Below are positions 806 through 1,440 of a DNA stretch of 64,000 nt, in pieces. The stretch lies in the NCBI RefSeq assembly GCF_000001735.4, contig NC_003071.7, forward strand, positions 10,285,151-10,349,150, read 5' to 3'. The notes below the pieces were generated by a model. That model did no database searches. It saw only the letters and a list, made by a program, of their open reading frames with translations, and was not told the origin of the DNA. The DNA is from Arabidopsis thaliana. Taxonomy: Eukaryota; Streptophyta; Magnoliopsida; Brassicales; Brassicaceae. The first letter of the stretch is position 1, and the number at the start of each line of letters is the position of its first letter. Both the position numbers and the translations under genes were made by a program.

Positions 806-1440
806 ATGTATAAATTCGTCGTTTGCTTATTAACTTTGAGTTTTCTCTTGCTCTCTGGACTATCAAACACAGCATTGGCCCGAGTACATCATGAGTCTTC
901 AAATCCAAGTAATTTTTATATTCCAAGCAATTTTGTATACTATTCGATTTTTGTTTAATTTGATTGTAGAGTATTAAATATACACTTCAAATTTTCCGTT
1001 TTAGAAAACAGAGATATTGAATGAAAATCGAATGTTATATAGTTTTGGTTATAATTCCATGTTTGCAAATATATCTTTAAAATCAAAGAATATCCATAGA
1101 AAATAGTCGTCAATTTTACTTTATCATCGCAGTTTGAATTTACGATTTGCTCATTATATATGAAAACTAAAACTGAATCATTGTAATAATATCTCTTCAT
1201 TTTTGGCTTTTGTAATAATTATTCCGGTATGGACATACAGTTCTTTTTCAATTTGGATTGGTTCCTCTAGATACGTAAGCAATAAACTGGCATAACAGAA
1301 ATGATTTGTTAATTGTTGCTTCTTTTTTTTCTGTTTTGAAAGAAATAGGAAACAGGGTTTGGGATCAAAAGATCTTCAACAATGTGAAGGTTCGTGTACT
1401 TCCCAGTGCTTCAAGGCGTGGACCTGGGCAAACCGGTTAG
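806..1440 (+). CDS. Small secreted peptide precursor (SCOOP/PIP-like phytocytokine candidate)
   Basis: Two exons, 806-908 and 1349-1440, join in frame across a GT-AG intron to give a 64-residue precursor. Residues 1 to about 25 form a clean signal peptide (MYKFVVCLLTLSFLLLSGLS, then NTALA). The mature part is short, basic and free of cysteine. It ends in VRVLPSASRRGPGQTG immediately before the stop. The two-exon layout, with signal peptide in exon 1 and active C-terminus in exon 2, is the plan of PROSCOOP and PIP/PIPL precursors. The SxS (SAS) resembles the SCOOP core, and the Pro-Ser then Arg-Gly-Pro-Gly arrangement resembles the PIP SGPS motif. I cannot decide between the two families. If it acts like them, it would be processed in the apoplast and perceived by a leucine-rich-repeat receptor kinase. 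That role is inference. I do not recall an annotated gene name here. An in-frame ATG at 761 would add 15 residues before the signal peptide and is disfavoured. Confidence 0.7.

Follow-up and report, generated by a model that had tools for sequence, protein, structure and literature searches.

The window analysed here is a 64 kb stretch of Arabidopsis thaliana chromosome 2 (10285151-10349150), and close to its left end, on the forward strand, there is most likely a small gene with two exons. Its left neighbour, outside the window, encodes a short-chain dehydrogenase (Pfam adh_short) in divergent orientation, and its right neighbour is an M17 (cytosol/leucyl) aminopeptidase gene on the minus strand, in convergent orientation. 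The reading frame opens with an ATG at 806, and the coding part of exon 1 (806 to 908, 34 codons plus one base) is followed by a phase-1 intron (909 to 1342) that begins with GT at 909-910. Exon 2 (1343 to 1440) then continues in frame to a TAG at 1438-1440, which stands directly after the C-terminal residues VRVLPSASRRGPGQTG. The signal-peptide exon, the intron with GT-AG borders and the second exon, which keeps the frame and has this end, can all be read directly in the sequence as the earlier note described them. No Pfam family was matched by the protein or by the two relatives (of nine) that were submitted.

Two in-frame acceptors lie close together at the end of the intron, the AG at 1341-1342, which gives a precursor of 66 residues, and the AG at 1347-1348, which gives the 64-residue form proposed earlier (intron ending at 1348, exon 2 starting at 1349). 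The 66-residue form is preferred, because its acceptor adjoins a T-rich tract immediately upstream and because it restores a homologous IGK-VW stretch. The protein then reads ...NPKIGNRVWDQ..., in which KIGNRVW matches KIGKEVW in two relatives on chromosome 1 (L010 and L015) and EIGKGVW in a third (L018). The gene as first proposed is retained, and its length is corrected by moving the acceptor six bases upstream. The predicted mature peptide is identical in the two forms, and the acceptors, being only 6 bases apart, could yield two precursors with a length difference of two residues. For a third acceptor in the same frame, which lies further upstream and would give 87 residues, there is neither T-tract nor homology support. 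Retention of the intron would stop the protein at 958.

The first 25 codons (806 to 880) encode a predicted signal peptide, MYKFVVCLLTLSFLLLSGLSNTALA, with Lys3, a hydrophobic core and A-L-A ahead of the expected cut after Ala25 (ALA, then R). On these sequence features the gene has the N-terminal signal peptide that is described for PROSCOOP precursors (PMC6382344; PMC7846792). The pro-region is short and carries the family block VWDQK...VK. It is followed by the SxS motif of the PROSCOOPs, here Ser-Ala-Ser at residues 56-58 (1405 to 1413). In the SCOOP 13-mer the essential serines are at positions 5 and 7 (PMC7846792), and in this numbering the peptide is predicted to be RVLPSASRRGPGQ, perhaps extended by TG, and thus about 13-15 residues long; the predicted mature peptide in this frame, RVLPSASRRGPGQTG, is encoded at 1393 to 1437. 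A glycine-rich end is described for the 13-mer (PMC7846792); the GPGQTG end here counts three glycines and lacks the GGG seen in SCOOP10#2. No dibasic site precedes SxS in the precursor sequence, a weak point of the SCOOP reading; when SCOOP12 was assayed with an extract, cleavage is reported to have followed a dibasic pair (PMC8448819).

Related genes were sought in the 119.66-Mb genome. A DNA search returned six other matches at four loci (best E 1.1e-28), and a protein search found nine other places with exon 1 (E 2.8e-9 to 0.37, some of the single matches being weak). Together the searches bring the number of related loci to at least 12, the gene itself not counted, and eight chromosomal places are occupied when its own is included (chr1 13.84 and 20.49 Mb, chr2 10.286 Mb, chr4 18.39 Mb, and chr5 9.83, 14.20, 20.50 and 20.905 Mb). 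Spliced models of nine of these loci were put into one alignment with the chromosome 2 gene, their acceptors being picked by us from several in-frame options; L042, L044 and L047 lie outside the alignment and the counts that follow. All ten rows have a signal-peptide exon and a phase-1 intron, and N21, T22, A25, R26, W41, K50 and S56 are invariant. S58 is kept in nine rows (Thr in L011), so that SxS stands at the same position in 9/10 and SxT in one, which supports the earlier proposal of a two-exon precursor for a secreted SCOOP-type peptide. In a protein tree the gene has no supported placement beside any single paralogue.

The three loci outside the alignment are varied. L042 (chr1 20497974) is intact and carries SNS. 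Near it lies L044 (chr1 20495124-20495219, with exon 2 downstream), in which exon 2 is frameshifted just before SxS; decay therefore occurs among the relatives of the gene. L047 (chr4 18393343-18393435), a second member on chromosome 4, has an exon 2 tail of SNSRRAGQGN, near the SASRRGPGQ of the chromosome 2 gene, together with a first exon that differs from the others and perhaps three exons in all.

A short frame in AT-rich intergenic sequence that lacks a Pfam match might be a chance open frame or an unrelated artefact with two exons. Profiles were built from the nine paralogues, leaving out the row of the gene itself, and run against the window translated in six frames (2,314 fragments). 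The full-length profile puts exon 1 at the top (E 3.3e-16) with exon 2 next (E 5.2e-9); the exon-2 profile has exon 2 at the top (E 2.4e-11). This is a strong test although not a fully independent one, because the nine paralogues were found from the window sequence. The best other fragment among those listed scores E 0.23 (full-length profile) or 1.3 (exon-2 profile), giving no sign of a second copy in the window. Paralogues have counterparts of the two exons, of the intron at its position and of the promoter. The two-exon frame is not due to chance, and the likelihood left to an artefact is negligible.

Over the promoter and the intron the closest relative is L018, on the minus strand of chromosome 1 with its ATG at 13836925. 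Identity reaches 93/105 aligned bases in the upstream DNA (z 12.2 over shuffles, as for the following values), 79/103 in exon 1 (z 19.8), 202/247 aligned bases in the intron (z 9.9), where the alignment is gap-rich (27 openings in another alignment), and 72/95 aligned bases in exon 2 (z 12.0). The downstream DNA of the two genes has no similarity (z 0). By eye, the DNA 3′ of L018, at about chr1 13835.3-13835.6 kb, resembles the beginning of a copia-type element.

We infer that L018 is AT1G36622, because Chr1:13837861 is entered as ‘3kb up’ of AT1G36622 (PMC8301139, Table 4) and this row agrees with the position of L018 but not with that of L015, its neighbour on the minus strand. AT1G36622 and AT1G36640 are reported to show sequence similarities to SCOOPs, and it was this likeness that set Hou et al. 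on the search in which SCOOP15-23 were found (Hou et al., 2021; PMC8448819). Through L018 the gene is thus homologous, in upstream DNA, intron and exons, to a gene that has been reported as SCOOP-like, provided that the identification from coordinates is right. The gene has in common with the AT1G36622/AT1G36640 branch the NT.LAR region around the cut, the phase-1 intron, the VWDQK block, SxS and the spacing of TATA and W-box, and with L018 (presumably AT1G36622) it additionally shares intron DNA. It differs from this branch in its donor, which lacks G at +5, and in its separate place on chromosome 2; after SxS it reads RRGPGQTG, whereas L018 reads VRAHSKDHKSNPNG.

The upstream DNA carries a W-box (TTGACC, 693 to 698), an AACGTG element (729 to 734) and a TATA box (TATATA, 752 to 757, the start of a TATATATATAT run) on the forward strand, 113, 77 and 54 bases before the ATG; a TATA box had been claimed in the earlier note. 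The same three elements are spaced at −108/−74/−56 in L010 and −107/−84/−55 in L018; the remaining members retain only part of the set. A forward TTGACC is found 77 to 141 bases 5′ of the ATG in six of the ten members, the chromosome 2 gene included, and at −349 in L012. AACGTG also occurs at −75 in L011 and at other positions in L012, L015 and L019, and is absent upstream of L013, L014 and L017. TATATA lies at −50 in L014, and was not found by pattern search in the upstream DNA of L011.

The gene was also compared with PROSCOOP10 (AT5G44580), located at chr5:17980113 by an exact match of a published peptide. Read by eye, PROSCOOP10 has a signal-peptide exon and a phase-1 intron, as have the two-exon models of the chromosome 2 gene and its nine paralogues. 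SCOOP10#1, SAIGTPSSTSDHAPGSNG, has been found in leaf apoplastic fluid (PMC9784617), and it has in common with the present peptide a PSxS-like core followed by A/G-P-G-x-x-G at the end. Unlike the chromosome 2 gene, PROSCOOP10 has two peptides, a third exon and a different signal-peptide sequence.

When the tail was aligned with ten peptides, as had been suggested, the outcome was mixed. Shuffle p values were 0.0025 for StPIP1_1, 0.0035 for L014, 0.0145 for SCOOP10#1, 0.076 for L047, 0.0835 for SCOOP10#2, 0.084 for L013, 0.19 for AtPIP1, 0.37 for L017, 0.67 for SCOOP12 and 0.70 for L018. The tail aligns with SCOOP10#1 and StPIP1_1, and not with AtPIP1; with SCOOP12, and with the tail of AT1G36622 itself, the score is no better than with shuffles. 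For the founding cluster on chromosome 5, one 10-kb stretch was searched; its best fragment, an exon containing GPSKSGQGGGR, scores weakly (exon-2 profile E 0.0046, full profile E 0.25). Conservation of SCOOPs outside the two serines is described as poor (PMC7846792), so weak tail matches and a weak profile score on chromosome 5 are expected and not decisive. The tie to the founding SCOOPs accordingly rests more on structure, motif and published statements than on these scores.

Precursors of the founding 14 PROSCOOPs have 72-117 residues (PMC6382344), a range that describes these genes and is not given as a requirement for belonging to the family. The precursor described here, with 66 or 64 residues, falls outside it, and its paralogues have 60 to 80. 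The earlier note had held that the peptide matched no SCOOP exactly; this is not supported, as homology, intron phase and motif all fit the PROSCOOP family. The gene is almost certainly a member of that family, whether working or decaying, and most likely belongs to a known family of signals and does not represent a new kind.

The earlier note had also pointed to PIP peptides, and StPIP1_1 from potato, RLPSGPSPRGPGH (PMC10667265), does give the best score of the ten against the tail, with likeness in LPS and RGPG; PIP1-type peptides (StPIP1_1, AtPIP1) likewise come from secreted precursors. A PIP/PIPL gene acting via RLK7 would account for this tail. The SGP(S) core, as described for PIP/PIPL peptides (PMC10667265; PMC11331138), is however absent from LPSASRRGPGQTG, and the peptide ends in GQTG, whereas StPIP1_1, AtPIP1 and a PIP-type precursor on chromosome 4 end in GH. 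This precursor (chr4:17549992-17550048, 17.55 Mb) has its signal peptide and its C-terminus in one open frame, with no intron between them, and at its own locus it is not within the best four fragments for either family profile. AtPIP1 does not outscore shuffles, and homology to L018 extends over promoter, intron and both exons. Lacking the SGP core and the terminal GH, and having an intron that the one PIP-type precursor located here lacks, the gene was rejected as a PIP member, and a PIP/PIPL identity is extremely improbable. Only the resemblance of the tail is left of the earlier suggestion, and it is best read as convergence. A SCOOP precursor with a PIP-like tail (RxLPS...RGPGQ) might also be a two-faced ligand that engages both MIK2 and RLK7, or might antagonise either receptor, which we regard as very improbable.

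Membership of the PROSCOOP family leaves two readings, a working gene and a decaying duplicate from the AT1G36622 branch, silent or with poor splicing, from which little if any active peptide would come. Decay would suit the donor, GTAATT, the sole one among the ten spliced models without G at +5, and splicing may therefore be weak. It would also suit exon 2, where dN exceeds dS in four of six comparisons (0.48/0.32 against L018), the invariant residues apart; this pattern fits fast divergence, as well as relaxed constraint. The relative at chr1:20495124, with its frameshifted exon 2, is a precedent. Against decay, the gene has kept an intact frame and start, its splice dinucleotides, and W, K and SxS, and the core promoter is retained. 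Exon 1, with dN 0.09 and dS 0.37 against L011, shows constraint. For the whole gene, dN/dS against the nine paralogues ranges from 0.48 to 1.06.

The survival of such a gene under neutrality was simulated with assumed branch lengths, survival meaning that frame, start, W and SxS were all kept. At 0.2 changes per site the surviving share of runs is 4.5% if indels are left out and 0.2% at a rate of 0.1 indel per change; on a branch of 0.1 changes per site it is 19.6% and 4.6%. Intact survival by neutral drift would thus be at most 4.5% at the longer of the assumed branches, although up to 20% at the shorter, which argues against decay. Judged on the sequence evidence, the gene is likely to be functional. 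We consider it probable that 806-1440 is a working PROSCOOP gene encoding a secreted SxS peptide; that it is a decaying duplicate seems rather unlikely.

If the gene works, its processing, receptor and response may be carried over by analogy from the family. Transcription would be induced by stress from the W-box/TATA promoter, and the precursor, judging by its anatomy, would be secreted via its signal peptide. In the apoplast or cell wall, subtilases could then free the C-terminal peptide RVLPSASRRGPGQ(TG), and its two serines could bind the MIK2 ectodomain together with BAK1, as described for the family (PMC11331138; PMC8448819). Sensing by MIK2-BAK1 would lead to calcium, ROS and MAPK responses.

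Among the signalling-peptide families that flowering plants possess, the SCOOPs are one of the largest (PMC11331138), and 50 PROSCOOPs at 19 loci have been published for Col-0 (cited in PMC11331138). Outside that 50-member list and supplementary files, literature searches with candidate locus names and with peptide strings of the gene and its relatives found no paper that mentions the gene or these strings. By our estimate, presence of the gene on that list is more probable than its absence, because family similarity finds it easily. Small two-exon genes can easily be overlooked by annotation, since two of the 14 founding PROSCOOPs were unannotated (PMC6382344). If absent from the list, the gene would extend the family by one member, whose tail is divergent and whose definable peptide of 13-15 residues can be tested directly on MIK2. 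As copies in the family are numerous and change fast, each further member helps to show which residues besides SxS matter. In the neighbourhood of AT1G36622, L010 (chr1 13853476-13853583) and L015 (13838997-13839095) are very similar (dN 0.049, dS 0.11), which points to a recent duplication.
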